From: Rhodospirillaceae bacterium
Lineage (GTDB): Bacteria; Pseudomonadota; Alphaproteobacteria; SHVP01
Assembly (NCBI GenBank): GCA_002701885.1
Contig: NZXH01000047.1
Location: 1 to 36,669 of the forward strand
Direction of reading: 5' to 3'
DNA length: 36,669 bases
Of this stretch, positions 4,186-21,950 are shown in pieces. Below the pieces are notes generated by a model. The model was not told the origin of the DNA, made no database searches, and was given only the letters and a program-made list of their open reading frames with translations. Every line of letters starts with the position of its first letter. Positions within the stretch are counted from its first letter, which is position 1. The position numbers and the translations under genes were made by a program.

Positions 4186-4764
4186 ATGATAGATCAAGAA
4201 ATAGAAATTATTAGACTTACCCATATAGCTAAATTTACTAAGAAAATCTTAGATATTGATTGGTTTAGTAGAACCAACCAACCATTGTCAAATCATGAAA
4301 AAGAGTTATCAGAAAAATATATCTCTGCAATCGGTTTCCCTGAGGCAAACATATCAAATGTTCCAGGTTGGAGTGAGGCTGCGGGTATTGCGGAAAACCC
4401 AAATTGGAATTCAAATTGGTGGGAAGCTGAAGAACAACTTAGATCAGCATTGTTAGCACAATCATTAGAAAGTATAAATGATAATGAGTTAAGTCATGCT
4501 TTAAATCATGTAACCACCCAAACTGCTGGACAATCTCTTGAAGCTGTAGCTTTTGATAAATTTGCTGAAGAATTAGATGATCTTGACTATTACCAATCTT
4601 TTGTTAATGCAGCTGCTGGAATGGCAATCGCATCAGCTTACCAGGCAGCCTTAGTTCTATCAGCCAGCGCTCACCAAGACCACCCATTCTCGTTAAAATT
4701 TCAACTTTTCGAAAATGGCAGACTTCCATTGGGGATAATTGGAAATACTTTTTCAATTTTTTAA
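4186..4764 (+). CDS. Conserved-looking hypothetical protein, 192 aa
   Basis: I do not recognise the family. The protein is acidic, soluble and mostly helical, with no signal peptide or membrane segment. A Trp/Asn-rich patch (VPGWSEAAGIAENPNWNSNWWEAEEQ, roughly residues 58-85, split here only for description) is followed by long Ala/Leu-rich helices and a His-containing ASAHQDHPFSLKFQLFENGR segment near the end. It starts 8 bases after the amidotransferase stop and ends 6 bases before xthA, so it is almost certainly part of the same transcript. The coding frame is sound: it is uninterrupted, fits the spacing of its neighbours, and has a purine-rich AGAGAAAA tract before the ATG. A competing +1-frame 66-aa ORF inside it is a shadow. 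Confidence 0.75.
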   Translation: MIDQEIEIIRLTHIAKFTKKILDIDWFSRTNQPLSNHEKELSEKYISAIGFPEANISNVPGWSEAAGIAENPNWNSNWWEAEEQLRSALLAQSLESINDNELSHALNHVTTQTAGQSLEAVAFDKFAEELDDLDYYQSFVNAAAGMAIASAYQAALVLSASAHQDHPFSLKFQLFENGRLPLGIIGNTFSIF

Positions 4765-4770
4765 ATTAAT

Positions 4771-5559
4771 ATGAAAATTGCTACATGGAATATAAACAGT
4801 ATCAGAATAAGAATAGACCAAGTTATAAGGTTTTTATTAAAAGAAAAAATTGATATTTTGTGCCTTCAAGAGACCAAGGTTACTGATAATCTCTTTCCTT
4901 TTAAGACGTTCAAAGATAATGGTTATAATTTTATAAAAGTAAATGGTCAAAAACAGTATAATGGAGTTGCAATAATTTCTAGATTACCGATAACCAGATC
5001 ATATAAAAAAGATTTTTGTGAAAAAAAAGAAAAGCGTTATATTAGTATAACTTTAGAAAATAATATTGAAATTCATAATTTTTACTTCCCCGCAGGCGGT
5101 ATTGAACCTGATATAAAAAAGAATCCAAAATTTGAAGAAAAGCTAAATTTTTATTCGAAAGTAACAGATTGGTTTACAAAAAGAAACTCGAAAAAAAAAC
5201 AAATATTAGTTGGTGATATGAATATTGCTCCTAGCGAAAATGATGTTTGGTCTCATGAAAAACTAATTAATATTGTCAGTCACACACCTATCGAAATAAA
5301 GTATTTTGACAAATTAATCAAAAGTTTTGATTGGGTTGACGCAGTAAGATATTTTAATGGTGATAAAAAAAAAATTTTTTCTTGGTGGAGCTATAGAGTC
5401 ATCGAGTGGAAATTAGAAAATAAAGGCAGAAGATTAGATCATATATGGGTTGAAAAATCTTTAAGTAAAAAAATCCAGAACATTCAAGTATTAAAAAAAT
5501 TCAGAAACTATTCTCAGCCATCAGACCATGTACCGTTAATTTTAGACTTAGACATTTAA
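4771..5559 (+). CDS. xthA: Exodeoxyribonuclease III
   Basis: AP endonuclease/3'-5' exonuclease of the EEP (exonuclease-endonuclease-phosphatase) fold that repairs abasic sites and blocked 3' ends. All catalytic blocks are present in 262 aa: NINSIRIR (residues 8-14), LCLQETKV with metal-binding Glu34, GVAIISR, the VGDMNIAP block with Asp149 and Asn151, RRLDHIWV, and the terminal SDHVPL with Asp252-His253. Length and motif order fit the ExoA/XthA branch. It ends the leftmost plus-strand gene run, and its last 12 bases overlap the 3' end of the convergent methyltransferase gene. That leaves no room for a separate terminator. Confidence 0.95.
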   Translation: MKIATWNINSIRIRIDQVIRFLLKEKIDILCLQETKVTDNLFPFKTFKDNGYNFIKVNGQKQYNGVAIISRLPITRSYKKDFCEKKEKRYISITLENNIEIHNFYFPAGGIEPDIKKNPKFEEKLNFYSKVTDWFTKRNSKKKQILVGDMNIAPSENDVWSHEKLINIVSHTPIEIKYFDKLIKSFDWVDAVRYFNGDKKKIFSWWSYRVIEWKLENKGRRLDHIWVEKSLSKKIQNIQVLKKFRNYSQPSDHVPLILDLDI

Positions 5560-6039
5560 TTTATACATAAAATATCTTCCAATAGTAATGCCTTGGGGTA
5601 ACTGCAATTCTGTGAAAAATTTTGAACTTAAACTTTGATCTCCCACTACAAGTCCATTTACATCAATAATCTTGGAAAGAATTACAGAGAGAGATTCTGC
5701 TCTCTTTAAACTTTCATCTTCATTTCCTGAGCCAATATCAAAATGAGCTAAAATAATTGGAGCACTAACTTCCTTTTTAAATTTAAAAAGTGTGCTTTTA
5801 AAATCACCTTCGTATAAATATTTTTTAGGAGGAATACAGTCTGGATGCGCTTTAACACTCTTTTCAAAAACAAATACTTTTTTTTCTGGGAATATTTTTT
5901 TTATGTGATCATAGGTTCTTCCGTTCCCCAAACCTATTTCAAGAATTACACCTTGTAGATCACTAATTAATTCTGAAGCAAATTCTATACAAACTTTTTG
6001 AGACTGAAGGCGCCTTATAGCAGATTCAAGCCTACTCAT
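5548..6039 (-). CDS. Class I SAM-dependent methyltransferase-like protein (PF12692 type)
   Basis: Small (163 aa) Rossmann-fold protein. The SAM-binding motif I is LEIGLGNGRTYDHI (~33-46), followed by VFVFEKS (motif II acidic residue) and a PIILAHFDIGSGNEDES segment where the catalytic/adenine loop would lie. This resembles the short alphaproteobacterial methyltransferase family PF12692, whose substrate is unknown. The ATG at 6039 lies 9 bases after the stop of the upstream cNMP-binding gene, so it is the third gene of the ABC exporter operon. Its 3' end overlaps xthA by 12 bases on the opposite strand. Assignment to the methyltransferase fold is fairly secure; the function is unknown. Confidence 0.78.
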   Translation of the reverse strand: MSRLESAIRRLQSQKVCIEFASELISDLQGVILEIGLGNGRTYDHIKKIFPEKKVFVFEKSVKAHPDCIPPKKYLYEGDFKSTLFKFKKEVSAPIILAHFDIGSGNEDESLKRAESLSVILSKIIDVNGLVVGDQSLSSKFFTELQLPQGITIGRYFMYKLNV

Positions 6040-6048
6040 ATAAATAAA

Positions 6049-6501
6049 CTAATTATTACCAAGAGATTTAGCTAATTGAGCTGTTGTTTGTTCTAATCGC
6101 GCTGCTAGCTCTCTTAAAATTTGAACAGCCATTTGAGGAAATTCGCTAACTAGTCTAAAAAACAAATCTTTAGAAATTCTCAAAACAACTACATCGGAAG
6201 AAGCCCTAACTGTAGCTGTTCTCGGTACATCACATAGTATTGATATTTCTCCCACAATTTGATGTTTTCCAATTTGACTTACAGTCTTGGAATCTCCATT
6301 GGCCATTTCAATTATAATATCCGCTTCACCTTCAATAATTATAAAAGCTGCATCTCCAGGGTCACCTTGAACACACAAATCAAGTCCTTTGCGAAATGTC
6401 AACCTTTCACTTGTGAAAGCAAGTAATTTTAATTTTGCAGGTTCAATATTAGCAAATATAGGAACTTGTCGTAATAATTCTACTTCATCATTAAGGCTCA
6501 C
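6049..6501 (-). CDS. Stand-alone cyclic nucleotide-binding-domain protein
   Basis: 150 aa consisting essentially of one CRP-type cNMP-binding beta-roll and a C-terminal helix, with no DNA-binding HTH. The phosphate-binding cassette looks intact: GEISILCDVPRTATVRA (residues 84-100), with Glu85 and Arg94-Thr95 in the positions that hold the cyclic phosphate in CRP/PKA-type domains. The front of the roll is VQGDPGDAAFIIIEGEADI (~44-62). The start is GTG (6501-6499), supported by a strong AAGGAG seven bases upstream. That ribosome site overlaps the stop codon of the ABC exporter gene, pointing to coupled translation and a partner role. It may gate or regulate the exporter in response to a cyclic nucleotide, but this is inferred from position only. 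Confidence 0.9.
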   Translation of the reverse strand: MSLNDEVELLRQVPIFANIEPAKLKLLAFTSERLTFRKGLDLCVQGDPGDAAFIIIEGEADIIIEMANGDSKTVSQIGKHQIVGEISILCDVPRTATVRASSDVVVLRISKDLFFRLVSEFPQMAVQILRELAARLEQTTAQLAKSLGNN

Positions 6502-6508
6502 AAGATAT

Positions 6509-6514
6509 CTCCTT
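6509..6514 (-). promoter_or_regulatory. Shine-Dalgarno site for the cNMP-binding protein
   Basis: Minus-strand AAGGAG lies 7 bases before a GTG codon and overlaps the stop of the ABC exporter gene (6513-6515). Most genes here have weak ribosome sites, so this strong one both decides the GTG start and suggests re-initiation by ribosomes finishing the exporter. Confidence 0.8.
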
Positions 6515-9185
6515 ATTTATTCTTATCTTCAATTAGCTTAGCCAAACCATCACCAGAATTTAGCTCTTCAAAACTGCCGAATTTAATTATCTTACCTTTT
6601 TTCATAGCAATAGTTTTATCAAAATAAGAAGCTTGCGAAGTTGAAGGCACAATCCATAGCAGACAACGACCTTTCATTTCATTAACTAGTTTTTTCATTA
6701 TTGTTTCAACTATATTGCTCTCAATAGCAGACAATCCGTCAGATATTATCAATACGTCAGGATTTTTAATTATAGATCTCGCTAATATTAATTTTTGTCT
6801 TTGAGCCAAAGTTAATCTGGAGCCAGAAATTCCTACATTAAAGTCTAACCCTACACTTACAATAGCTTTCCTTAAACCAATTTGAGCAATCACATCAGCC
6901 AATATTTTTCCTACTCTATCAGCTGATTCTGCTTCACCGTAAGCTATTTTTCCAAATAGAATATTATCCTGAAGAGTTGCTCCAGTGATGTATTGATTTG
7001 AATTATAAAATTCAATATCTTTTTTCAAACTTTCTGGAAGTCCCTCTGAAAAAATTTTTCTTGCTTTAAGTATCTCTCCTTGAAATTCTTCAGTAACAAT
7101 ACCTAATCTGTGTCTTGCTGGAACAAGCAGAAAGGGAAGCCCAATTAACTTTGCCACTTCATCTTCTTTAAGCTGATCTAAATGCTCTTTACTTACCCTA
7201 CCCAATATAGCTTGGAAATCTGGCAACTCTTCAGAGGATATAAAACTAAATTGCTGAAAAAATTCATGGTCAGGAGGTAAATCAGCAAACAATTCTACCA
7301 TAGTTGCAGCTACTTGATAACCAGTATGAAGCATTTTATCTTTTAGACCTGCTTTATCAAGTACACTCATAACATAACTATGGTTTCCTAAATGATTCAT
7401 ATCAAACTCATCACTAGTTGGGTTTCCAAAAATTAAATTTTCTCCAACAGTTGCATTCGTATTGTAAGAATTAACTTCAAATGATTCTACCAGATTAGCC
7501 AAGTCCTTATCATTTGCTATTTTTTGAATAAAACTCTCTCTTGCCTGAAGAACAAGGTCAGTGGTTTGTTTCTTTGTATCTGGATCTATTGTACCTCTTA
7601 ATCCAAGTTGATAAACATCATCTGTAAGATCAGCAATTTCAAGCACTCTTAATGCCTGCTCAACAAGAGAATCATCATCAGTTGCCCCTGCAGCTGCATA
7701 ATCCGTCCATATAGCATTTGGGTCATCAGTTGAATTGCCTGATGCTACAGAGGTAGAAATTGTTGATTTGAATTCTTTTGCTTTTTCTGAATCAGGATTT
7801 TCTGATATTTGTTTATGCCTCAACCCATAGTAAAGATTGTCTGCCAAAGAAGAAGAAAAAACATATCCCCCTGAGCCAACGTAAGACATACGCCTTCCTG
7901 TTAAAGACTCAGGAGCTTGAGATATATCATTACCTCCCAAATTTATTGATCCAGAGGAAGGTTGAATAAGACGAGCTAAAAGCATTGCTAGATCTTCTCT
8001 TCCGCTACCTGGAATTCCAACTAAAGCAACTGATTCATTTAACGAAAATTTTATATTTGCCCCATCAACGATAGCAGTCTCTTGGTCATCATTTAAAATA
8101 ACATTTGTAAGTGATAAATCTCCAGATAATCCATTATCATCTTTTGGTTCTTCTGTTTGAGCAAGTTCGTCAATCATATCAACAGGCTCAAATTGAGAAA
8201 TCACTTGATCATATTTAATTTTTGAATCTGCTTGTTTTTGATAATAGCCTAATAACTCTTTCCATGGAGAAGCTAAATCTTTATGGGCGGCTATAGCGGC
8301 CATCAGAGTTCCTACTTCAAGCTCTCCTTTAATAACTAAATATCCTCCAATAGAATAAAAGAAAAACGGACCAAGTTGTTGAATAAAATTATTTACAAAT
8401 TTTATGAAAAATTTTTGTCTATAAATTTTGTATCTTACGTCAAATATTCCACTTAGTTGATATGAAAATTCTGCCCGCTCCCTTCTAGAAGTATCATGAA
8501 CATGCACTTCTTCTACACCTTGAACTGTTTCTCCAATCCTATCAGATAATGTTCTAACCCTTTTAACTCTTTCTTTTCCTAAAAGATTAACTTTCATTTG
8601 TAATTTAGGAATTAGGTAGAGTTGAATAGGATAAAGAGCTACAGCCGCTGCTGCCATGAAAGGGTTTTGGGCAAACAAAAAACCTAATATTACTAATAAT
8701 TGTCCACCTTGAAAAATAGGTTGAGCGAACGCATCTCCAATAAAACCACCAAGTGGCTCTACCTCAGCAGTAATCATGGGTATAATTTCACCTTGGGACA
8801 TATTTTTGAAAGTCCCTCTAGGAAATCTTAAAACACGACTGTAAAGGTCATATCTTAAGCGCCTTAACATTCTCTCACCAGTAAGGCCCTTGTATACATT
8901 TATGATATATTTAAAGGCTTGATTAATAACTACTAAAATTAAAAAGAGGATACATAAGATAATTAACCATTGTATATGGTCTACGGAAAAGCCAAGATTT
9001 AGGCCAAATAATTCTGCTTTTTGAGGAAAAGTTTCAGGGTCACCTTGAATAGCACCATTTATAATTTGCTTAGGTAACTCATAAAAAATGTAAAGAACGG
9101 GAAAGGAAAGTATGGCCATTAGAGTCAGCGTTACTTGCTGCCTACTACTAAACTTAAGAATATACTTAAATATGCTTTTTTCCAT
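6513..9185 (-). CDS. Atypical ABC exporter: membrane domain plus enlarged, degenerate nucleotide-binding domain
   Basis: 890 aa, against about 580-620 for a normal half-exporter. Residues ~15-325 form a type-I exporter membrane domain (hydrophobic segments near 20-37, 72-90, 160-195, 270-300) with the usual cytoplasmic coupling region. The nucleotide-binding domain starts near 355, but its catalytic residues are changed. Walker A is GIPGSGRED (390-398), with Arg396 where the Lys should be. The Q-loop region is YVGSGGYVF (435-443), with Ser for Gln. The signature is ISGSR (786-790). Walker B IISDG has Asp816 but Gly817 for the catalytic Glu, and no H-loop His is evident (IVPSTS ~845-850). About 290 extra residues separate Q-loop and signature; they echo the helical subdomain (ADNLYYG 448-454, GENLIFG 581-587, QDNILFG 739-745). 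It heads the minus-strand operon with the cNMP-binding and methyltransferase genes. The substrate is unknown; the divergent glycan genes hint at a glycan or lipid. Confidence 0.85.
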   Translation of the reverse strand: MEKSIFKYILKFSSRQQVTLTLMAILSFPVLYIFYELPKQIINGAIQGDPETFPQKAELFGLNLGFSVDHIQWLIILCILFLILVVINQAFKYIINVYKGLTGERMLRRLRYDLYSRVLRFPRGTFKNMSQGEIIPMITAEVEPLGGFIGDAFAQPIFQGGQLLVILGFLFAQNPFMAAAAVALYPIQLYLIPKLQMKVNLLGKERVKRVRTLSDRIGETVQGVEEVHVHDTSRRERAEFSYQLSGIFDVRYKIYRQKFFIKFVNNFIQQLGPFFFYSIGGYLVIKGELEVGTLMAAIAAHKDLASPWKELLGYYQKQADSKIKYDQVISQFEPVDMIDELAQTEEPKDDNGLSGDLSLTNVILNDDQETAIVDGANIKFSLNESVALVGIPGSGREDLAMLLARLIQPSSGSINLGGNDISQAPESLTGRRMSYVGSGGYVFSSSLADNLYYGLRHKQISENPDSEKAKEFKSTISTSVASGNSTDDPNAIWTDYAAAGATDDDSLVEQALRVLEIADLTDDVYQLGLRGTIDPDTKKQTTDLVLQARESFIQKIANDKDLANLVESFEVNSYNTNATVGENLIFGNPTSDEFDMNHLGNHSYVMSVLDKAGLKDKMLHTGYQVAATMVELFADLPPDHEFFQQFSFISSEELPDFQAILGRVSKEHLDQLKEDEVAKLIGLPFLLVPARHRLGIVTEEFQGEILKARKIFSEGLPESLKKDIEFYNSNQYITGATLQDNILFGKIAYGEAESADRVGKILADVIAQIGLRKAIVSVGLDFNVGISGSRLTLAQRQKLILARSIIKNPDVLIISDGLSAIESNIVETIMKKLVNEMKGRCLLWIVPSTSQASYFDKTIAMKKGKIIKFGSFEELNSGDGLAKLIEDKNK

Positions 9186-9319: not shown

Positions 9320-10573
9320 ATGATTAAAAAATTTGATAATTCTAAAATCTCTGGCTCAAGAGTTCTTATTTATAGTCATGATACCATGGGTCTTGGCCAT
9401 TTAAGACGAAGTAGAGCCATAGCAAATTCACTAGTAGAAAAATATGACGATTTATCAGTATTAATACTCTCTGGCTCTCCAATAATTGGTAGCTTTGATT
9501 TTAGCAATAGAGTTGATTATGTTAGAATTCCCGGTGTTATCAAATTAAAAGATGGAGAGTATACCACACTAAATCTAGCGATAGATATTGATGAAACTAT
9601 ATCTATGAGATCCTCAATCATAAAACATACTGCAGATATATTTGACCCTGATGTATTCATAGTAGATAAAGAACCAACCGGGCTGAGGGGGGAAGTTCTA
9701 GAGACTCTGAAGATGCTTAAAGAAAGAGGAAAACACCTTGTTTTAGGACTTAGAGATGTTCTTGACTCCTCCGCTGCGCTTGAACCTGAGTGGAAACGAA
9801 AAAATGTTTTGCCTGTCCTTCGAAAATTATACGACGAGATTTGGATTTATGGACTTCCTCAAATTTATGAGCCTCTGAATGATCTTCCATTACCTAAAAA
9901 AGTTTTAGATAAAATAACATATACTGGCTATCTCAGAAGATCCGTTAAGAATACATCTAACTCTATGGATAGGTTTTTTCCAGAAAAAGAACCTTATTTG
10001 TTAGTTACACCAGGAGGAGGAGGAGACGGAGAAGAATTAATCGAATGGGTACTAAGTGCTTATGAAAATGACCCTCTATTACCCTACGCAGCTTTATTTG
10101 TTCTTGGACCATTCATGCAACCAGAACTTCAAGAAGAATTTATGAAAAGATGTAAAAAAATGAAGAGGATCCATGTAATCACTTTTGATGTTCAGATGGA
10201 AGACTTAGAATCTAATGCTGCAGGTATAGTGGCTATGGGTGGCTACAATACATTTTGTGAAATTCTGTCTTTGGATAAAAGGGCAATTATTATTCCAAGA
10301 ACCTCACCAAGGTTTGAACAATATATTAGAGCCTCAAGAGCAGAAGAGTTAGGTCTTGTCAAAATGCTTGAAGATAACGGCAAACTTGACCCTTTATTAA
10401 TGGCTCAAGCATTAAAAGAAATGCCTAAGCAAAAAAAACCTTCTGAAATAATTGTACCTGGGCTTTTAGAAGGTTTAGAAAATGTAAATAGACTAGTTGA
10501 GCCATGGATAAGTAGAAAGAATGATAAAGAGATTAATTTACATAAAAATATTACACCACTTAAAAGAGCATAA
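9320..10573 (+). CDS. Glycosyltransferase, COG4671-like (GT-B fold), copy 1
   Basis: 417-aa soluble protein resembling the predicted glycosyltransferases of COG4671, related to the GT28/MurG C-terminal fold. Seen: an N-terminal strand VLIYSHD followed by the loop GLGHLRR (residues 24-30), the GxGH element of GT-B enzymes; a PYLLVTPGGGGDGEEL segment (~225-241) opening the C-terminal donor domain; and a GGYNTFCEIL motif (~310-319) in the place where MurG/UGT-type enzymes bind the nucleotide-sugar. No membrane segment is present. It is the first gene of a seven-gene plus-strand cluster, and a diverged second copy lies at 13540-14688. The ATG is preceded by an A-rich tract without a strong ribosome site. 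Donor and acceptor are unknown. Confidence 0.85.
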   Translation: MIKKFDNSKISGSRVLIYSHDTMGLGHLRRSRAIANSLVEKYDDLSVLILSGSPIIGSFDFSNRVDYVRIPGVIKLKDGEYTTLNLAIDIDETISMRSSIIKHTADIFDPDVFIVDKEPTGLRGEVLETLKMLKERGKHLVLGLRDVLDSSAALEPEWKRKNVLPVLRKLYDEIWIYGLPQIYEPLNDLPLPKKVLDKITYTGYLRRSVKNTSNSMDRFFPEKEPYLLVTPGGGGDGEELIEWVLSAYENDPLLPYAALFVLGPFMQPELQEEFMKRCKKMKRIHVITFDVQMEDLESNAAGIVAMGGYNTFCEILSLDKRAIIIPRTSPRFEQYIRASRAEELGLVKMLEDNGKLDPLLMAQALKEMPKQKKPSEIIVPGLLEGLENVNRLVEPWISRKNDKEINLHKNITPLKRA

Positions 10574-10583
10574 CTTATAAACT

Positions 10584-11798
10584 ATGCATGTGGCGTTTAT
10601 TTTAAAAGGGTACCCACGAATATCTGAAACTTTTATTGCCCAAGAAATTCTAGCCTTAGAACAAAAAGGTATTAATATATATATATTTTCTTTAAGAGGT
10701 CCGAGAGAAAAATTTACTCATCAAATTAATAAAAAAATAAAGGCAAAGGTATACTATATACCAGAATATATATATAAATCACCTTTAAAAATTTTTTTGT
10801 CATGGCTAAAAATAAGAAAACTTCCTGGATATAAAACTTCCCAAAGAGAGTGGTTTAAAGACTTAAAAAAGGATTTTACCCCAAACAGAATTAGAAGATT
10901 TGCACAAGCAATAGTTTTATCTAAAGAGTTACCTAGCTCTATTACACACCTGCATTCTCATTTTTTACATACACCTACATCAGTTACTTATTATGCATCA
11001 AAAATTTTGGGCAAACCTTACTCAATATCTGCTCATGCAAAAGACATATGGACAACAAAAAACTGGGAAAAAGAAAAAAAACTTAAAAATGCTTTATGGA
11101 CAACCACCTGCACAAAGCAAAACCAAGAACATTTATTAGCTTTATCTCCGAAGTCAAATATAAACCTAATTTATCATGGAATTGATTTTGACCGCTTTCC
11201 ACCTCCTCATGAAGAAGAACCAATAAAAAAAGATTTAAAAGAAAATTCACCATTTATTATATTATCAATTGGCAGGTTGGTAGAAAAAAAAGGTTTTGAT
11301 ATTCTATTAAAAGCTCTATCCTTACTACCTAATGAAATAAATTGGAAATTAGAACATATTGGTAATGGTCCATTAAGTAAAGAATTGAAAACTCTCTCAA
11401 GAAGGCTAGGTTTACAGAAAAAAATAAATTGGAATGGAACTTTAACACAAGAAAATATTTCAAAATTTTATCAAGTAGCTGATATTTTTGTTTTAGCATC
11501 TAAAATAACAAACTCAGGAGATAGAGACGGGATTCCAAATGTTCTTATGGAAGCACAATCACAAGGAATTGCGTGTATAAGCACAAAACTCCCGAGCATA
11601 GAGGAATTAATTATAAATAATGTTTCTGGTATTTTAGTTGAAAGTGGCTCAATATTTAAGCTTAAAGAAGCTATGATTAACTTAATCATGCACCCTGACA
11701 TAAGAAAAAAAATAGGTTATGCTGGCCAAACTAGGGTAAAAGAAAATTTTTCAATGCACGTTGGTATTGAAAAACTTTCAAAGCTTTTTTTAAGTTAA
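10584..11798 (+). CDS. Glycosyltransferase family 4 (WcaL-like)
   Basis: 404-aa GT-B retaining glycosyltransferase. The N-terminal signature FILKGYPRISETFIAQEILAL (read as two parts, residues 5-13 and 14-25) is typical of the colanic-acid WcaL/AmsK subgroup, as is the SAHAKDIW acceptor-domain motif (~149-156). The donor domain begins at ILSIGRLVEKKGFDILLKAL (~225-244). The nucleotide-sugar loop is DGIPNVLMEAQSQGI, which keeps the second Glu of the EX7E motif; the first position is Asp. It begins 10 bases after the previous stop and ends 7 bases before the next gene, so it is one operon. The likely role is adding a sugar to a lipid-linked or surface glycan on the cytoplasmic face. Confidence 0.9.
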   Translation: MHVAFILKGYPRISETFIAQEILALEQKGINIYIFSLRGPREKFTHQINKKIKAKVYYIPEYIYKSPLKIFLSWLKIRKLPGYKTSQREWFKDLKKDFTPNRIRRFAQAIVLSKELPSSITHLHSHFLHTPTSVTYYASKILGKPYSISAHAKDIWTTKNWEKEKKLKNALWTTTCTKQNQEHLLALSPKSNINLIYHGIDFDRFPPPHEEEPIKKDLKENSPFIILSIGRLVEKKGFDILLKALSLLPNEINWKLEHIGNGPLSKELKTLSRRLGLQKKINWNGTLTQENISKFYQVADIFVLASKITNSGDRDGIPNVLMEAQSQGIACISTKLPSIEELIINNVSGILVESGSIFKLKEAMINLIMHPDIRKKIGYAGQTRVKENFSMHVGIEKLSKLFLS

Positions 11799-11805
11799 AT
11801 ACATT

Positions 11806-12954
11806 ATGAAAATAGCATTTTATTCTCCTCTAAAACCATATGACCATAAAGTAATTTCAGGAGATAGAAACATTGCCAAATCCTTGATTAAATTATTCGA
11901 AAGTTTAGGGCATGAGGTAATTATTCCATCCAAATTTAGAAGCTATGCTAAAAATTCAGAGGCACAACACTCTATATACGAAAAATCATCTAAAGAAATA
12001 TCTATGATTTTAGATGAATTTGACAACAAGGTCCCTGATCTATGGTTTACTTATCATAGTTATTATAAAGCACCAGATTATTTTGGACCTTTAATAAGTA
12101 AAAAGCTATCTGTACCATATATTATTCTAGAAGCATCTTACGCAAAAAAAAGAAGTATAGGGGAATGGAAAATTGGTAGCAGAGAAGCTTTTAAATCAAT
12201 TACCTCTGCTAACGCTATAATTAATTTTACAAACAGAGATTTTGAAGAGATAAATAAAATTATTAGGCATAAAAGCCAAAATTATATTTTACCGCCTTTT
12301 CCAGATACATCTATATTTTATAAAAAAGATTTGGATAAAAATATTTTTAAGAAAAATTTTTCCTCTAAGTTTAGTATTCCAGAAAGTGCTCCTTGGGTGT
12401 TAACCGTTGGGATGATGAGGGATGATGATTCGAAACTAGCATCATATGAAATACTTTCAAAATCAATGAATTTATTAAATCAAGATTACTATCTTTTAGT
12501 GGTTGGAGACGGCCCAAAAAAAACATATGTAAAAAAATTATTGAAAGAAGCAATAAATGAAAAAGTATTTTTTCTTGGAGAAATGAAACCTATAGACCTT
12601 GCTAATTTATATAACTGTTGTGATATATTTGCTTGGCCAGGTGTAAATGAAGCTTTTGGATTATCTTATCTAGAAGCCCAAGCATGTGGCTTGCCTGTAG
12701 TAGCAGGAAACTCTGGTGGTGTTTCAGAAGTAATAAATAAAACTAAATCTGGGTTTTTGGTAGATATTACTGATAAAAACCCACAAAATTTTAGTAATGC
12801 TTTAGAGAAACTAATTACTGACTCGAACCTTAGGTATAATATGAGTATTGCAGCTGAAAATTTTATTAACAGAGATAGAACTTTAGAAACTACGGCTGAA
12901 AAACTTAATAATATTTTATATATGGTATTAAATAATTATAAAAATTTAAATTAA
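11806..12954 (+). CDS. Glycosyltransferase family 4
   Basis: 382-aa GT-B enzyme. The acceptor domain starts MKIAFYSPLKPYDHKVISGDR (motif residues 1-20 only). The donor domain contains VLTVGMMRDDDSKLASYEIL, VVGDGPKK, LGEMKPIDLANLYNCCDIF, and a complete EX7E motif in NEAFGLSYLEAQACGLPVVA, followed by GGVSEVI. The subgroup resembles sugar transferases acting on lipid-linked oligosaccharides, but substrate specificity cannot be read from sequence. Its stop codon shares one base with the start of the histidine phosphatase gene (TAATG), indicating translational coupling within the glycan operon. Confidence 0.9.
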   Translation: MKIAFYSPLKPYDHKVISGDRNIAKSLIKLFESLGHEVIIPSKFRSYAKNSEAQHSIYEKSSKEISMILDEFDNKVPDLWFTYHSYYKAPDYFGPLISKKLSVPYIILEASYAKKRSIGEWKIGSREAFKSITSANAIINFTNRDFEEINKIIRHKSQNYILPPFPDTSIFYKKDLDKNIFKKNFSSKFSIPESAPWVLTVGMMRDDDSKLASYEILSKSMNLLNQDYYLLVVGDGPKKTYVKKLLKEAINEKVFFLGEMKPIDLANLYNCCDIFAWPGVNEAFGLSYLEAQACGLPVVAGNSGGVSEVINKTKSGFLVDITDKNPQNFSNALEKLITDSNLRYNMSIAAENFINRDRTLETTAEKLNNILYMVLNNYKNLN

Positions 12955-13539: not shown

Positions 13540-14688
13540 ATGCATAAAAGAGTTTTATTTTATGTCCAACACCTTCTTGGAATAGGACATTTAAAAAGAG
13601 TTTCAATAATTGTAAAACAAATGTCTTTAAAGGGTTTAGATGTAACAGTTATTTCCGGTGGAAACAGAGTAGATAGTATAGATTTTGGAAAAGCTTCTTT
13701 TATACAACTTCCCTCCGCAAAAGCAAAAGACTCCAATTTTTCAACTTTAATTGATGAAAATGGAAATACAATTAACGATATTTGGAAAAAAAATAGAAGA
13801 GAACTAGTTCTAAATGTATTTCAAAAATTAGAACCACATATATTAATAACTGAAATGTTTCCCTTTGGAAGAAATCAAATGAAATTTGAACTTTTACCTC
13901 TTTTAGAGGAAGCAAACAATAGTAATGTAACAATAATTTCTTCCATAAGAGATATAATTGTAAGCGATATAAAAAAAACAAAGGTGGAGCAGCGTAATTT
14001 TCTACTCACAAAATACTATAAATATATACTTGTGCATGGAGAAGAGAAATATTATTCAATAGGGAAAAATCTTGGTTTAGATAAACTCAATATAAAAAAA
14101 ATATATTATACTGGTTATGTTTGTAATCAAAAAAACAATAAAAATTCACTACCAAGATACAAAAAAGAAATTCTAGTTTCTGCTGGGGGAGGAGCTGTAG
14201 GAAAGAAGATTATTGTAAATGCTATTAAGGCTTCTTCACTTTTTTTTGATCAAGACTTTACTTGGAGGATATTAATAGGACTTAATGAAAATGATCAAAA
14301 CAAAAAAGAATATTCCAAACTGGCACATCAAACAGGAAAGAAAATAATAATTGAATATTTTACGGAAAATTTTAATATACTTCTCTCCAATTGCTTAGTT
14401 TCTATTAGCCAAGCAGGATATAATACTTTCTTAGAAGCGATTTCTTGCAAAGTAAAGTCTATATTTATTCCATATGCTGAAGACATTAAAAGCGATCAAA
14501 TAATCAGAGCTAGATCTTTTAGCTCACTTAACTTTATTAAATATATAGACGAAAAAGACTTAAATCCGTCTAAAATAAAAGATAGCATAATTGAACTAAT
14601 GAAACAGGAGGATAGAGAGTTTAATTTACCAAATTTTGATGGTGCTGAAAATACATATAAATTTATTAATGGCCTTACTAATGAGTAA
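13540..14688 (+). CDS. Glycosyltransferase, COG4671-like (GT-B fold), copy 2
   Basis: 382-aa diverged relative of the first gene of the cluster. It has the same opening (VLFYVQHLLGIGHLKR, with GIGHLKR at 14-20), the same order of elements, a shorter Gly patch (VSAGGGAVGKK) at the start of the donor domain, and SQAGYNTFLEAI corresponding to the GGYNTFCEIL loop of copy 1, followed by a conserved DQIIRARSF tail. No membrane segment is visible. The GIGH loop and the donor loop are both retained, so it should be active, perhaps on the next acceptor in the same glycan. Its last 8 bases overlap the preferred start of the deacetylase gene. Confidence 0.82.
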   Translation: MHKRVLFYVQHLLGIGHLKRVSIIVKQMSLKGLDVTVISGGNRVDSIDFGKASFIQLPSAKAKDSNFSTLIDENGNTINDIWKKNRRELVLNVFQKLEPHILITEMFPFGRNQMKFELLPLLEEANNSNVTIISSIRDIIVSDIKKTKVEQRNFLLTKYYKYILVHGEEKYYSIGKNLGLDKLNIKKIYYTGYVCNQKNNKNSLPRYKKEILVSAGGGAVGKKIIVNAIKASSLFFDQDFTWRILIGLNENDQNKKEYSKLAHQTGKKIIIEYFTENFNILLSNCLVSISQAGYNTFLEAISCKVKSIFIPYAEDIKSDQIIRARSFSSLNFIKYIDEKDLNPSKIKDSIIELMKQEDREFNLPNFDGAENTYKFINGLTNE

Positions 14689-15451
14689 AATTTGGAGAGA
14701 TTTAAACACCGAATTAGAAAGATGGAAAGATGCATCTATCTATCCTATTTTCTGGATAAGGGATGACGATGCTATCAAAGATGGACCAAAACTTACAAAA
14801 TTAATTTTTACTGCAAAAAAATTTAACACTCCTCTTTCAATTGCTGTTATACCATTTTTAATTGAGAAAAATTTGATTGAAAGATTAAATTCTTACGATT
14901 TAATTACGGTTCTACAACACGGATTTAAACATAAGAATTATGAACCAAATAATCAAAAAAAGTCTGAATTTGGACAAAGCAGAGACTTAAATAATATGAT
15001 CGCAGATATATTTCATGGGACAAAATTAATATCTGAAGCCTTTGAGAAAATATTTGAACCAATTTTCGTCCCACCATGGAATAGAATGAACCACCTGCTT
15101 TTACCTTATATTTATTCTTTAGGAATTAAAGGAGTATCTTCTTTTAATAAAAACTTGGTAGATAATACAAATAATAAATCTATAGTTATGAATACTAATA
15201 TTGATATTATTGATTGGAAAAAAAACAAAAAATTTATAGGCGAAGAACAAATTATACAACAATTAATTTTTGAGCTTATAAGTAGAAGAAATAAAAAAAA
15301 TGAAGGATATAATGAACCTATCGGAATTCTAACTCACCATAATCAAATGAATGATAGCGCTTTTTTATTTTTGGAAAAATTAATATTGAACACAAAAACC
15401 TATGGGGCTCAATGGAATTCAATAAAAGAAATAATAATGAAAAAAAAATAA
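14681..15451 (+). CDS. Polysaccharide deacetylase family protein (NodB-like)
   Basis: A divergent NodB/carbohydrate-esterase-4-like protein of 256 aa. Seen: IRDDDAI near the N-terminus (motif 1 acidic triad), LQHGFKHKN (the His-x3-His metal pair of motif 2), FVPPWNRM (motif 3), and GILTHHNQM near the C-terminus (motif 5 His). There is no signal peptide, so it may act in the cytoplasm on a lipid-linked or soluble precursor. I chose the ATG at 14681 rather than 14636. The later start directly precedes the conserved domain and overlaps the upstream gene by only 8 bases, whereas the longer version adds an unlikely 15-residue extension read through the glycosyltransferase end. It is the sixth gene of the glycan cluster. 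Confidence 0.82.
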   Translation: MSKIWRDLNTELERWKDASIYPIFWIRDDDAIKDGPKLTKLIFTAKKFNTPLSIAVIPFLIEKNLIERLNSYDLITVLQHGFKHKNYEPNNQKKSEFGQSRDLNNMIADIFHGTKLISEAFEKIFEPIFVPPWNRMNHLLLPYIYSLGIKGVSSFNKNLVDNTNNKSIVMNTNIDIIDWKKNKKFIGEEQIIQQLIFELISRRNKKNEGYNEPIGILTHHNQMNDSAFLFLEKLILNTKTYGAQWNSIKEIIMKKK

Positions 15452-15959: not shown

Positions 15960-17813
15960 ATGGATAATATACTTTTAGTTAACGACCTTCATGTTGAATT
16001 TAATGCCCCTGAGGGTTTAATTAAAGCTGTAAAAGGGGTCTCTTTTAAAATTCCAACAGGGAAAACTATAGCAATAGTGGGAGAATCAGGTTCAGGAAAA
16101 TCAGTAATTTCTCAATCTATTATGGGTATCTTACCCAAAAATGGTTCAGTAGCTCAGGGTCAAATAAAATTCTATGACCCTAAAAACTCTTTCAAAGAAA
16201 CAATGATTACATCTATAAAAAATAATAGCCCTGAAATGAGAAAGGTTAGAGGGTCTGGAATATCAATAATTTTTCAGGAACCAATGACCTCATTGTCCCC
16301 TTTGCATACCATTGGAAATCAAATCGCTGAAGGTTTTCTTTTACATAATAAGGTTGGTAATAATGAAGCAAGGGAGGCAACTGTTGAAATATTAAAATTA
16401 GTAGGATTTCCAAACCCTTCAAAATCAATAGATATATATCCGTTTGAATTATCTGGTGGTTTAAGGCAAAGAGCAATGATTGCAATGGCTATGATCTGCA
16501 GACCAGCTCTTTTAATAGCAGATGAACCCACCACAGCTTTAGATGTAACCGTTCAGGCGCAAATTTTAAAATTAATGAAAGACCTTCAATCGAACTTAGA
16601 AATGGCCATACTTATGATAACCCATGATTTAGGGGTTGTAGCAAATATGGCAGATGAAATAATTGTTATGTACCATGGGGAAATTATGGAATATGGAAGC
16701 CTAAAGGATATATTTCATGATCCTCAACACCCATACCTTAAGTCTTTATTAAAAGCTGTTCCTAGATTTGGCATGGGACCAAATGAAAGGCTAATTCCTA
16801 TTAGAGAAATCAATTCCAAAATTTCTACTTTGGGTTCAGAGATAAATTTAGAAACAGGTAACAAAGTAGTCCTTGAAGTTAAAAACTTAAGTAAAACATT
16901 TACAACAAGAAAAAAATCATTTCTTAGTAATTCTTCCCAAAACGCAATTAAAGCTATTGATGATGTTAGCTTTGATGTGCCTAGAGGAGAATGTGTAGGT
17001 TTAGTAGGCGAATCAGGTTGTGGAAAAACTACCACTAGCAAAATTATAATGGGCGCACTTAAGCCAGACACAGGAGAAATAATTTTCAATACTAGTAAAA
17101 GCAAAATAGATGTATTAAAAATAAGACAGAGAAAAGAAGTCTTATATTTTAGAAAAAGTTCGCAATATATTTTTCAAGACCCCTTTAGTTCTTTAAACCC
17201 AAGAATGACGGTTTTTGACATTATAAATGAGCCATTGATTATACATAATTTAGGCTCGGAGGAAGATAGACTCAATAAAGTAAAATCACTAATTGAAATG
17301 GTAGGTCTTCCAATTACTTCATTAAGAAGATATCCCCATAGCTTTTCTGGAGGGCAAAGACAACGGATTGGCATTGCAAGAGCCTTAGCATTAGAACCTG
17401 AGTTTCTAATTTGCGACGAACCAGTTTCAGCTTTAGACGTTTCAATTCAAGCTCAAGTTCTTAATCTGCTTAAAGATCTTAAACGGGATCTAGGTTTAAC
17501 CTATCTATTTATTTCCCACAATTTAGCTGTAATTGATTATATTTCAGATTATATTATTGTTATGTGTGCAGGCAAAATCGTTGAAAAAGCACCCAAAGAT
17601 GATTTTTTCAATAATGCACAACACCCCTATACAAAAGCGCTTTTAGGTGCAGTGCCTGAACCTAATCCAAATAAAAAGTTAAATTTTCAAAACCTAATGG
17701 ATGGAAAAGCTTCAATCCCATCTGAGTGGCCAGAAAAATATGTAATAAACGAAAAATTTTCACCTACAATGAATGAAATTGGAAATAACCACTGGGTGTT
17801 ATCAAATGTTTAA
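15960..17813 (+). CDS. ABC importer ATPase, fused double NBD (DppD-DppF/YejF type)
   Basis: 617-aa fusion of two nucleotide-binding domains that power an oligopeptide-family (OppDF-like) importer. NBD1: Walker A GESGSGKS (~41-48), signature LSGGLRQR, Walker B LLIADEPTTALD (~184-195), and the D-loop/H-loop THDLGVV. NBD2: GESGCGKTT (~350-358), FSGGQRQR (~460), LICDEPVSALD (~484), SHNLAVI. Both catalytic sets are complete, in contrast to the exporter at 6513-9185. The C-terminal oligopeptide-transporter extension (AQHPYTKALLGAVPEP) occurs after each half in the usual form. The ATG at 15960 follows an AAAGAG tract. The 3' end overlaps the binding-protein gene by 8 bases, so the four importer genes form one operon. 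Confidence 0.95.
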   Translation: MDNILLVNDLHVEFNAPEGLIKAVKGVSFKIPTGKTIAIVGESGSGKSVISQSIMGILPKNGSVAQGQIKFYDPKNSFKETMITSIKNNSPEMRKVRGSGISIIFQEPMTSLSPLHTIGNQIAEGFLLHNKVGNNEAREATVEILKLVGFPNPSKSIDIYPFELSGGLRQRAMIAMAMICRPALLIADEPTTALDVTVQAQILKLMKDLQSNLEMAILMITHDLGVVANMADEIIVMYHGEIMEYGSLKDIFHDPQHPYLKSLLKAVPRFGMGPNERLIPIREINSKISTLGSEINLETGNKVVLEVKNLSKTFTTRKKSFLSNSSQNAIKAIDDVSFDVPRGECVGLVGESGCGKTTTSKIIMGALKPDTGEIIFNTSKSKIDVLKIRQRKEVLYFRKSSQYIFQDPFSSLNPRMTVFDIINEPLIIHNLGSEEDRLNKVKSLIEMVGLPITSLRRYPHSFSGGQRQRIGIARALALEPEFLICDEPVSALDVSIQAQVLNLLKDLKRDLGLTYLFISHNLAVIDYISDYIIVMCAGKIVEKAPKDDFFNNAQHPYTKALLGAVPEPNPNKKLNFQNLMDGKASIPSEWPEKYVINEKFSPTMNEIGNNHWVLSNV

Positions 17814-19740
17814 TTATCAAGAAAGTAAACATTCAAATTTATTCAAACCTGAAAGTATCATTATATTTTTAGTAATAATGACTTTATTTACAATTATTCC
17901 AATGAAACTGTATGCGGAAAAGTATATAGAATCTGAATACTTTATCCAGAAAGTACAGAATAATACTTTGCCTTCTATTGAAAATCGTATTCCAAAAAAA
18001 CCTAGATTAATTAATGTCGAAGAACCTGGAAAATATGGTGGAGAGATCAGAATGTTCATTGGGCGTACTAAAGATATTCGCCTTATGGTAGTATACGGAT
18101 ACTCTAGGTTAGTAGGGTATAATATAAATAGGGATCTAGTTCCTGATATACTTGAAAAGTTTGAAATTATAGACAATAAAAAATTTACTTTTTATTTAAG
18201 GAAAGGACATAAATGGTCTGATGGAACTGAGTTTACTTCAGAGGATTTCAGGTATTGGTGGCAAGACGTAGCAAATAATGAAAAATTATCTCCCTCTGGA
18301 CCACCCAATGATATGATTCAAGATAACGAAGCTCCAGAATTCAAGGTTATTGATAAATACACAGTTCAATACGAGTGGAAAAAACCCAAAACATCTTTTT
18401 TAAATCGTTTAGCTAGCGCCTCTCCTTTATTTATATATCGACCAGCACATTATTTGAAACAATTTCATATAAAGTATACGCCTGAAGAAGATATTAAAAA
18501 AAACAATAAAAGTAAAAGGAACTGGGCAGCTATACATAACAAAAAAGATAACTTATATAAATTTGACAACCCAGACCTTCCTACTCTTCAGCCTTGGTTT
18601 AATTCAACCAGTCCACCTGCAACAAGATATATATTTAAAAAAAATCCATACTTTCATAGGGTGGATCAAAATGGAAGACAACTGCCTTACTTAAATCAAG
18701 TGAGGTTTTCTCAAGTTTCAGCTTCGTTGATAGCAGCTAAAGCCGGTGCAGGTGAGTCTGATTTACAAGCCAGAAATTTAAGCCTAAAAAGTTTTCCCTT
18801 TTTAAAAAAGAATGAAATTAAACTCGGGGACAACTCAAAGTATAAAACATATCTTTGGAAGGGTGCTAAAGGGTCTCACATAGCACTTTTTCCAAATCTA
18901 AATATTAATAACGAAATTCTAAAAGAGTTATTTAGGGATGTTAGGTTTAGAAGGGCATTATCATTAAGTATTGATAGAGAGTTAATCAATGAAGCATTAT
19001 ATTTTGGTCTTGCTTCAGAAAGTAATAATACTGTTTTAAAAGAAAGTGAACTATTTAAGGAAAAATATAAAACTTCTTGGACTCAGTATGATATTGATAA
19101 AGCAAATGACCTACTAGATAAAATAGGAACAATTAATAAGGGTAGTGATGGTTTCCGCGTAATGAAGAATGGGAAAAGACTAGAAATAATTGTTGAAACC
19201 TCTGGGGAAAGCGAAGAAGAAACTGATGTTTTAGAATTAATAAAAGAAAGCTGGGAAGAAATTGGTATAAAGTTATTTTCAAAACCATCACAAAGAGATG
19301 TTCTGAGAAATAGAATTTTTTCTGGTGAAACAATGATGGCGGTCTGGTCAGGTCTAGAAAACGGCATTCCAACTAGGAATTTTGAACCGAGAGAATTGGC
19401 TGTTACTTCTCAACAACAATTTCAATGGCCAAAGTGGGGTCAATATGTTGAAACAAGAGGGTTGTCGGGAGAAAAAGCAGATTTGAAAGAAGTTATAATG
19501 CTTAATGATTTACTAGTTAAATGGCAAAATACATCGGAACAAAATTTAAGAAAGAAAATATGGCAAGATATGCTCGATATTCATGCTGATCAAGTCTACA
19601 CTATTGGAATAGTTTCTGGAGTAAAACAGCCAGTTGTAGTAAGAAAAAACCTCAAAAATGTTCCTAAAAATGGAATTTATAATTGGGACCCAGGGGCACA
19701 TTTTGGTATCTACATGCCCGACACATTTTGGTTAGAATAA
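17806..19740 (+). CDS. Extracellular solute-binding protein family 5 (large type)
   Basis: Periplasmic substrate receptor of the importer. From the ATG at 17806 it is 644 aa, with a Lys/His-containing N-region, a hydrophobic core (residues 18-33) and a probable cleavage site after LYA (37). An upstream in-frame ATG at 17773 would hide the signal peptide behind 11 extra residues and extend the overlap with the ATPase, so I reject it. Family-5 features: LVPDILEKFEI, LRKGHKWSDGTEFTSEDFRYWW, YRPAHYLKQFH, FKKNPYFHRVD, and DVRFRRALSLSIDRELIN. The length exceeds DppA/OppA (about 535 aa) and resembles the large binding proteins that in several bacteria import oligosaccharides or modified peptides. 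The ligand cannot be deduced. Confidence 0.92.
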   Translation: MFNYQESKHSNLFKPESIIIFLVIMTLFTIIPMKLYAEKYIESEYFIQKVQNNTLPSIENRIPKKPRLINVEEPGKYGGEIRMFIGRTKDIRLMVVYGYSRLVGYNINRDLVPDILEKFEIIDNKKFTFYLRKGHKWSDGTEFTSEDFRYWWQDVANNEKLSPSGPPNDMIQDNEAPEFKVIDKYTVQYEWKKPKTSFLNRLASASPLFIYRPAHYLKQFHIKYTPEEDIKKNNKSKRNWAAIHNKKDNLYKFDNPDLPTLQPWFNSTSPPATRYIFKKNPYFHRVDQNGRQLPYLNQVRFSQVSASLIAAKAGAGESDLQARNLSLKSFPFLKKNEIKLGDNSKYKTYLWKGAKGSHIALFPNLNINNEILKELFRDVRFRRALSLSIDRELINEALYFGLASESNNTVLKESELFKEKYKTSWTQYDIDKANDLLDKIGTINKGSDGFRVMKNGKRLEIIVETSGESEEETDVLELIKESWEEIGIKLFSKPSQRDVLRNRIFSGETMMAVWSGLENGIPTRNFEPRELAVTSQQQFQWPKWGQYVETRGLSGEKADLKEVIMLNDLLVKWQNTSEQNLRKKIWQDMLDIHADQVYTIGIVSGVKQPVVVRKNLKNVPKNGIYNWDPGAHFGIYMPDTFWLE

Positions 19741-19758
19741 TTAAGGGTTATAAAGCTA

Positions 19759-20784
19759 ATGTTCAATTATCTAATTCAAAGAATGTTTGTTATGATACCT
19801 ACTCTACTGGTAATTAGTTTTCTTATATTTGTAATAATCCAACTTCCTCCAGGGGATTATTTATCTAATCAACTTCTAGAACTTCAATCTCAAGGTGATT
19901 CAGCCGCTGCAGAACGAATAGCTTTTTTAAGAGAACAGTACGGTCTTGATAAGCCCTTTATACAACAATATGGAATCTGGTTAGGAGTCTTACCTGGTAA
20001 TGAAGGTTTCTCTGGACTTCTTCAGGGAGATTTTGGTCAATCTTTCGAGTTTGATATGCCAGTAAGTGAAGTAATCGGTGATAAAATATGGCTATCAATA
20101 ATTGTTTCTTTCGCTACAATAATTTTTACCTGGGTTGTTTCTTTTCCAATCGGTGTTTATTCAGCAACTCATCAATATAGTGTAGGTGATCATTCACTTA
20201 CACTAATTGGCTTCTTGGGTCTTGCGACCCCTAATTTTCTTTTAGCTTTAGTTTTACTATATTTTGCAAACGTATGGTTTGGAACTGAAATTGGCGGGTT
20301 AATGGATGAAAAATATCTCGATCAGCCCTGGTCATTTGATAAATTTATGTCTGTGTTAGAGCATTTATGGGTCCCAGTTGTGGTTATTGGAACATCTGGA
20401 ACAGCTGGTATGATAAGAAGGTTACGGGCCAACCTTTTAGACGAGCTCCAAAAACAATATGTTACTACTGCTAAAGCAAAAGGACTACATGACTTCAAAA
20501 CTTTACTAAAATACCCTTTAAGAATGTCATTAAACCCTTTCATAGCAGATATAGGAAATCTTTTACCTCAAGTTGTTTCTGGAGCAGCAATAGTATCTGT
20601 GGTTCTATCGTTACCAACAACTGGACCTATGCTTCTACAAGCACTCCAGTCACAAGATCAATATTTGGCTGGATCTTTTCTCATGGGACTAGCCCTTTTA
20701 ACTGTTGTAGGAATGTTTCTCTCAGACTTAGCATTAGCAGCTCTGGACCCAAGAATAAGGTTAGGTGAAAGTGCATCAAAATGA
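19759..20784 (+). CDS. ABC importer permease, DppB/OppB type
   Basis: 341-aa inner-membrane permease with six predicted helices, starting FNYLIQRMFVMIPTLLVISFLIFVIIQLPPGDY, the usual OppB opening (shown only as a landmark; key residues PPGD at ~31-34). A long first periplasmic region carries FLREQYGLDKPFIQQYG. The cytoplasmic EAA loop reads RANLLDELQKQYVTTAKAKG, followed by the LLKYPLR element that contacts the ATPase. An AAGGGT ribosome-site-like tract lies about 12 bases before the ATG. The stop overlaps the next permease start in an ATGA motif, showing strict coupling of the two channel halves. Confidence 0.95.
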   Translation: MFNYLIQRMFVMIPTLLVISFLIFVIIQLPPGDYLSNQLLELQSQGDSAAAERIAFLREQYGLDKPFIQQYGIWLGVLPGNEGFSGLLQGDFGQSFEFDMPVSEVIGDKIWLSIIVSFATIIFTWVVSFPIGVYSATHQYSVGDHSLTLIGFLGLATPNFLLALVLLYFANVWFGTEIGGLMDEKYLDQPWSFDKFMSVLEHLWVPVVVIGTSGTAGMIRRLRANLLDELQKQYVTTAKAKGLHDFKTLLKYPLRMSLNPFIADIGNLLPQVVSGAAIVSVVLSLPTTGPMLLQALQSQDQYLAGSFLMGLALLTVVGMFLSDLALAALDPRIRLGESASK

Positions 20785-21950
20785 CAAATACAAATAAAAA
20801 CGAAATGAGAGAACATTATGTAAATAAAAAACCTTTTGACCCTCAATCAATTGAGAAAATGAGTGCATCTCAAGAAAAGTTTTTTATGGCATCACAATGG
20901 AAAATGATGTGGTGGAAATTACTAAGACATAAACTGGCAGTTTATTCTGGATGCATACTTTTATTTTTATACTTTTCTATTTTAATTAGTGAATTTTTAG
21001 CCCCTTATGCTCTAGACTCTAGAGATAGGAGAAATATTTTTGCTCCTCCCCAATCCATAAATTTATTTCATGAAGGTGAATTTATTGGCCCCTTTGTTTA
21101 CGGTTACAAAAAAGTTTTAAATACCGAAACATTAGAAAGGGAGTATACAATAAGTAAAAATAAAATATATAAAATTAGATTTTTATGTAGTGGAGATAAG
21201 TACAAATTTTGGGGAATGATTAATTCGAGTTTTCACTTATTTTGTCCTTCCAAAAAAGGTTACCTTTATATATTAGGTACCGATCGTCTTGGAAGAGATA
21301 TGCTATCTAGAATAATCTATGGAACTAGAATTTCTTTAACAGTTGGGCTAATAGGAATAACCATAAGTTTTTTTCTTGGAATAACATTAGGGGGTCTTGC
21401 CGGATATTTTGGCGGTTGGGTTGATAGTTTAGTGCAAAGAAGCATAGAAATTATTAGATCATTTCCAGAACTACCCCTTTGGATGGCTTTATCAGCGGCA
21501 CTACCAGCTACTTGGAGCCCCATATTAATTTATTTGGGAATAACAATAATCTTGGGTTTGATAGACTGGACAGGATTAGCAAGAGCAGTAAGGTCTAAAT
21601 TATTATCCTTAAGAGAAGAAGATTTTGCTACTGCGGCTGTTCTTATGGGGGCAAGTCCAAAAAGAGTCATAGCAAGGCATTTATTACCATCATTTATGAG
21701 TCATCTAATTGCTTCAGCAACTTTGTCAATACCGGCAATGATACTTGGTGAAACTGCTTTATCATTTTTAGGTTTAGGCTTAAGACCCCCTATAACTAGT
21801 TGGGGAGTTCTATTAAACGAAGCGCAAAATATCAACGCTGTAGCACTACATCCTTGGTTAATATTCCCAGTAGCTCCAGTAATAATAACTGTCTTAGCCT
21901 TAAATTTTTTTGGTGATGGACTTAGAGATGCAGCAGACCCATATAAATAA
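20781..21950 (+). CDS. ABC importer permease, DppC/OppC type with enlarged periplasmic segment
   Basis: 389 aa, longer than typical DppC (about 300). After a cytoplasmic N-tail and the first helix (~52-72), roughly 85 extra residues precede the LGTDRLGRDMLSRIIYGTRISL motif (part of the family's second block). They include GPFVYGYKK and KFWGMINSSFHLFCPSKKGY, which probably form an extra periplasmic subdomain against the binding protein. The remaining helices and the EAA loop (SLREEDFATAAVLMGASPKR, then HLLPSF) are standard. It overlaps the upstream permease by 4 bases and ends one base from the convergent methyltransferase gene. The insertion is of a kind known with large family-5 binding proteins, so it supports an unusual or bulky ligand. 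Confidence 0.93.
   Translation: MTNTNKNEMREHYVNKKPFDPQSIEKMSASQEKFFMASQWKMMWWKLLRHKLAVYSGCILLFLYFSILISEFLAPYALDSRDRRNIFAPPQSINLFHEGEFIGPFVYGYKKVLNTETLEREYTISKNKIYKIRFLCSGDKYKFWGMINSSFHLFCPSKKGYLYILGTDRLGRDMLSRIIYGTRISLTVGLIGITISFFLGITLGGLAGYFGGWVDSLVQRSIEIIRSFPELPLWMALSAALPATWSPILIYLGITIILGLIDWTGLARAVRSKLLSLREEDFATAAVLMGASPKRVIARHLLPSFMSHLIASATLSIPAMILGETALSFLGLGLRPPITSWGVLLNEAQNINAVALHPWLIFPVAPVIITVLALNFFGDGLRDAADPYK

Follow-up and report, generated by a model that had tools for sequence, protein, structure and literature searches.

A conserved alphaproteobacterial family of ABC-type exporters with a degenerate nucleotide-binding domain is linked to a cyclic-nucleotide-binding protein

The window studied here is a stretch of 36,669 nucleotides from a Rhodospirillaceae bacterium (contig NZXH01000047.1, assembly GCA_002701885.1). 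The open reading frame at 6513..9185 on the minus strand encodes a degenerate ABC exporter, P0001, of 890 residues plus the stop codon, whose family is conserved in Alphaproteobacteria. A preliminary description of the locus had placed the gene at the same coordinates, correctly and free of stops and frameshifts, and had not given the strand. The protein consists of a transmembrane domain (TMD; residues 1-345; 8151..9185), the N-terminal part of a nucleotide-binding domain (NBD) with the Walker A motif and Q-loop (residues 355-456; 7818..8123), an all-helical insert (residues 457-735; 6981..7817), and the C-terminal part of the NBD with the signature, Walker B, D-loop, and H-loop positions (residues 736-890; 6516..6980), all on the minus strand. 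The TMD is supported by Pfam PF00664, the AlphaFold2 model, and its invariant basic residues; the N-terminal part of the NBD by Pfam PF00005 and alignment with canonical exporters; the C-terminal part by the alignment; and the insert by the AlphaFold2 model, the alignment, and profile comparison.

Eleven bases downstream of the exporter starts the gene of P0002, a cyclic-nucleotide-binding (cNMP) protein of 150 residues (6049..6501, minus strand; Pfam PF00027, 3.9e-20), and a Methyltransf_17 methyltransferase gene (5548..6039, minus strand; Pfam 4.4e-45), found in 47 of 80 related loci, lies in the same direction as the exporter. On the plus strand are the genes of a divergent GT28-type glycosyltransferase (9320..10573; in 75/80 loci) and two GT4 glycosyltransferases (10584-11798, in 73/80 loci; 11806-12954, in 67/80 loci), followed, within the same cluster, by a peptide/nickel-type importer with a tandem ATPase, a large binding protein, and two permeases (15960..21950, plus strand). 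In Rhizobium leguminosarum, genes for an ATPase, a binding protein, and two permeases likewise lie directly before the homologous locus. On the rhizobial plasmids, the genes of the glycosyltransferases, the exporter, and the cNMP protein are retained as a core. Some members (Tistrella L092, L082) have no glycosyltransferases. Two genes of the window gave no Pfam match and are conserved, one (14636-15451) in 52 and the other (4186-4764) in 11 of the 80 related loci. Scans for promoters and terminators gave results near the chance level.

To set the register of the NBD motifs, we aligned P0001 with ten canonical exporters taken from sibling genomes. Each of them carries GK[ST], Q, LSGGQ, D[ED], and H where these residues should fall, and these controls ruled out motif misalignment. 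In this alignment, the NBD of P0001 retains none of the nine canonical catalytic residues. The Walker A motif is GIPGSGRED (residues 390-398; 7992..8018, minus strand), in which Lys is replaced by Arg396 and Ser/Thr by Glu397. The Q-loop is YVGSGGYVF (residues 435-443; 7857..7883, minus strand), with Ser438 in place of Gln, and the H-loop position is occupied by Pro847 (6645..6647, minus strand). The replacements at Walker A and the Q-loop and the missing H-loop His had been named in the preliminary description, and the alignment agrees with each of them. The replacement of the catalytic Glu by Gly, also claimed there, was a register error of one residue: IISDGLSAIE aligns with LLLDEATSALD, and therefore the Walker B Asp corresponds to Ser815 and the catalytic Glu to Asp816, within the segment from Walker B to the D-loop, VLIISDGLSAIE (residues 811-822; 6720..6755, minus strand). 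Further changes, formerly overlooked, are LTLAQRQ (residues 791-797; 6795..6815, minus strand) at the position of the canonical signature LSGGQ[RK]Q, that is, LTLAQ for LSGGQ; the D-loop Asp, replaced by Glu822; and an insert of about 277 residues. The ABC_tran (PF00005) match is weak and split, with 47 bits, over the cut-off.

This insert extends the stretch between the Q-loop and the signature from 24 residues in canonical exporters to about 277 residues in the family. The AlphaFold2 model of the whole protein had a pLDDT of 86.5 and a pTM of 0.80, and the insert modelled alone was all helical with a pLDDT of 90.8. No match to the insert was obtained by sequence search or in Pfam, and a Foldseek search of the PDB gave no fold match (best E 2.3). 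A [TV]xENLxFG segment located after the Q-loop recurs twice more inside the insert. When non-overlapping slices were compared as profiles, the second and third copies matched each other with an E value of 9e-10 over 61 columns and the first copy matched the other two, over 23-27 columns, with values of about 1e-4, whereas reversed controls gave 0.02 or worse. Because of this repeat, the insert may have arisen when part of the helical subdomain of the NBD was duplicated, a reading supported only for the segment around the motif.

The membrane domain had been described as intact, as Pfam ABC_membrane (PF00664; 1.3e-25, 91 bits, over the cut-off) bears out. Ten basic residues of this domain (K92, R108, R109, R120, R206, R211, R251, K258, K262, and K324) are invariant in the family and mostly absent from canonical exporters. 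Judged from the sequences, they would suit an anionic substrate.

Homologs were collected from 41 related genomes and by scanning 84,980 species genomes, where at least 517 relatives were confirmed. In an even sample of Alphaproteobacteria, the gene was present in 132 of 385 genomes and 87 of 276 genera, as full-length copies or as fragments at contig ends. Outside this class, a single contig matched, over the membrane domain only. The family copy on contig L077 (JANQQD010000373.1), which is labelled Anaerolineae, pairs with that of the alphaproteobacterial L074 on very short branches, and this contig is probably mis-binned. One member (L131:3485-7504) has an N-terminal extension of about 460 residues in which no Pfam match was found. 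In S. meliloti 1021, the match on pSymB (NC_003078.1, 841723-844378) is 2656 bases long, and that in strain 2011 (NC_020560.1, 841727-844381) is 2655 bases long, as in most others; the record of strain 1021 may contain a one-base difference in the exporter gene. The dN/dS values were between 0.01 and 0.12 in every region of the exporter, including the NBD. P0001 belongs to a real, conserved subfamily of ABC-type exporters. As we found no description of the family or of the S. meliloti locus in the open-licence literature, this large alphaproteobacterial family is apparently undescribed.

The alignment of homologs, which the preliminary description had proposed as a check, extended the catalytic degeneracy to the whole family. 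Residues were tallied in 89 non-duplicate sequences, and combinations of residues and their changes on a tree were studied in 87 homologs. The Walker A Ser/Thr is replaced by an acidic residue in 75/89 sequences (84%), and 85/89 (95%) lack the Walker B Asp, which is Asn or Ser in 78 and retained in four. Most members have [KR][ED] at Walker A paired with N/S at Walker B; the two are not strictly coupled. The Walker A Lys position has Lys in 45 of the 89 sequences and Arg in another 39, and a basic residue is kept there in 82/87 homologs; Arg can substitute for this Lys in binding. The catalytic position is Glu in 59/89, the Q-loop Gln survives in about one-quarter and the H-loop His in about one-third of the 89 sequences, the D-loop Asp is kept in 81/87, and the AQRQ core of the signature is nearly invariant. 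On the tree, Lys, the catalytic Glu, and His were each changed about a dozen times, and in the rhizobial plasmid copies the Walker A Lys is replaced by Ala or Gly and the catalytic Glu by Arg or Gln. The tallies, the tree, and the rhizobial copies together show an old loss, common to the family, at both Mg-ligand positions and a progressive one elsewhere; by the same residues, P0001 is near the extreme of catalytic loss in the family.

Close relatives with the canonical Lys and Glu had been considered a sign that function was not lost. Such relatives do exist, which bears out this objection in part, and L010, 57% identical, for example keeps Lys, Glu, Gln, and His; however, even these relatives have lost both Mg-ligand positions, and the combination of Lys, Ser/Thr, Asp, and Glu was found in none of the 87 homologs. 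As 15 of the 87 retain Lys, the catalytic Glu, and His together, residual use of ATP is possible in part of the family.

Of the 80 loci, 79 have the cNMP gene after the exporter gene. P0002 has both the PF00027 match and the Glu and Arg of the phosphate-binding cassette, VGEISILCDVPRTATVRA (residues 83-100; 6202..6255, minus strand), which contact the cyclic nucleotide in known cNMP-binding members. In the cassette, Gly84, Arg94, and Ala96 are conserved in 80/80 and Glu85 in 76/80. In 12 of 21 distant members, the exporter itself carries a cNMP domain at its C-terminus as a fusion, and Pfam confirmed the fusion in all three fused members checked. The synteny and the twelve fusions strongly support the link to the neighboring cNMP-fold protein suggested in the preliminary description. 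Class III nucleotide cyclases were found in all 12 genomes tested, with eight in the source genome, which would be consistent with binding of cAMP or cGMP by the partner protein. In Mesorhizobium, the locus lies between two cyclase genes. To judge from the conserved residues, the family has preserved the receptor and given up the ATPase site.

Fifteen loci encode related membrane domains of 278-434 residues that stop at the final transmembrane helix and thus have no NBD, and in none of these loci does an adjacent gene encode an exporter-type NBD. In a tree of TMD sequences, which has a long branch to the canonical outgroup, the NBD-less proteins and the degenerate family form one group that contains none of the ten canonical exporters (100/100 support), and within it the NBD-less proteins lie on two separate branches. 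One branch (419-434 residues; L138:11773-13077, L139:9779-11038, and L141:7761-9023) is located in copper-resistance clusters of roseobacter plasmids, together with genes for TolC, copper oxidase, azurin-like proteins, and cytochrome c. Two of these three proteins are annotated as ABC transporter ATP-binding protein. A second NBD-less group (279-337 residues) includes L106:5862-6869, L108:2690-3703, and L110:4667-5506, and these genes adjoin the same downstream gene in all three genomes. As no gene for an exporter-type NBD adjoins the NBD-less genes, the membrane domain of this clade has uses without an NBD in cis, and its presence in copper-resistance clusters indicates that substrates may vary within the clade.

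From the precedents discussed below, the basic TMD residues, and the adjoining glycosyltransferases, we favor a transporter of the type IV exporter fold that has lost ATP hydrolysis, is regulated by cyclic nucleotides, and moves a glycan or glycolipid; we give this joint reading a probability of roughly one-half. The transporter would presumably be a homodimer, in which the NBD, no longer hydrolyzing ATP, would persist in the cytoplasm as a folded module that has no catalytic role and has grown by the helical insert. This module could be the docking or gating element for the cNMP-binding protein, whether adjacent or fused. The substrate, probably a glycan or glycolipid that the neighboring glycosyltransferases produce, would be moved downhill or with an ion gradient. 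On a bolder version, which we hold only tentatively, the exporter has become a transporter or channel that needs no ATP and is gated by cyclic nucleotides, in which the dead NBD and the insert form the gating module for the cNMP receptor, and some related lineages have dropped the NBD.

ATP might instead be bound without being hydrolyzed and serve as a ligand that keeps the NBDs dimerized, much as it does at the degenerate sites of CFTR. The basic residue at Walker A (82/87), the D-loop Asp (81/87), and the nearly invariant AQRQ core fit such a role, whereas the acid at the Mg-ligand Ser/Thr (75/89) and the missing Walker B Asp (85/89) are unfavorable for Mg-ATP, and the rhizobial copies lack even the basic residue of Walker A; we consider this explanation rather unlikely. 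Catalysis of a non-canonical kind, in which the acid has shifted from Walker B to Walker A, still coordinates Mg, and sustains a slow ATPase, would account for the reciprocal [KR][ED] and N/S pattern of most members and for the catalytic Glu of 59/89 sequences. It seems very improbable, as P0001 has Asp at the catalytic position and neither His, Gln, nor LSGGQ, and as the Walker A and Walker B patterns are not strictly coupled between sequences.

A partner supplying the active NBD, also raised in the preliminary description, found no support in the gene context. P0001 would then be inactive itself and would pair, in a heterodimer, with an unlinked exporter half carrying a canonical NBD; degenerate halves are common (PMC7756269), and the source genome has other exporters. 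However, 74 of 80 loci have no linked canonical half; another NBD was present in the flanks covered for the remaining 6/80, in each case at a distance of about 3 kb or more from the exporter, and was adjacent in 0/80. The loss of both Mg-ligand positions and the NBD-less relatives without an adjacent exporter NBD also speak against a heterodimer, which we regard as improbable. Although the many catalytic losses could be taken as signs of a decaying pseudogene, purifying selection is strong throughout (dN/dS of 0.01-0.12) and the gene persists in 132/385 genomes of the class, full-length or as contig-end fragments, so decay is ruled out.

If the favored reading of a cNMP-controlled transporter independent of ATP hydrolysis is correct, the family would be a second natural route, beside SbmA/BacA, to an ABC exporter that works without hydrolyzing ATP, with surviving intermediates that have a partial catalytic set, none, a fused second-messenger receptor, or no NBD. 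The function of an ABC TMD without ATP could then be tested in Sinorhizobium meliloti (pSymB) and Azospirillum, cyclic nucleotides would gain a direct transport target in bacteria, and the label 'ABC transporter ATP-binding protein' on genes of the family would probably be wrong.

Like the type IV exporters MsbA and ABCB, P0001 has a six-helix TMD and a C-terminal NBD in one chain, in the order ABC_membrane and then ABC_tran, and in Foldseek the whole model aligned with TmrAB, P-gp, and TM287/288. Unlike MsbA and ABCB, it lacks the catalytic set (Walker A, the Asp/Glu of Walker B, LSGGQ, Q-loop, and H-loop) and has the NBD insert of about 277 residues and a cNMP partner, and its family differs from canonical exporters in the invariant basic residues of the TMD. 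MsbA_lipidA (TIGR02203) was the best NCBIfam match, at 176.9 bits against a cut-off of 602, and P0001 was thus rejected as an MsbA equivalog. As in the family, catalytic Glu, H-loop, or signature residues are lost in CFTR, TAP, TM287/288, and TmrAB (PMC7756269); however, these proteins combine a live site with the dead one, and the P0001 family, which is not known to have a live site, also lacks the Mg-ligand positions. In NHLM bacteriocin systems (TIGR03896), an exporter gene is likewise linked to a cNMP-fold protein, whereas the P0001 family has no peptidase domain and has other neighbors; P0002, at 40.9 bits against a cut-off of 161, is not an NHLM equivalog.

The precedents for transport without ATP are SbmA, which is driven by protons and arose from an ABC membrane domain (PMC13316013), and MsbA-MD, an MsbA without the NBD, which moves ethidium on a proton gradient (PMC4979069). 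No SbmA_BacA domain was found in P0001 or its NBD-less relatives, in which PF00664 was found instead, and we do not assign them to SbmA/BacA. In the proton-driven peptide transporters SbmA/BacA (SLiPT), the TMD of an ABC exporter works without ATP (PMC13316013), and we propose that it may do likewise in the P0001 family, most members of which, unlike SbmA/BacA, keep a remnant of the NBD.
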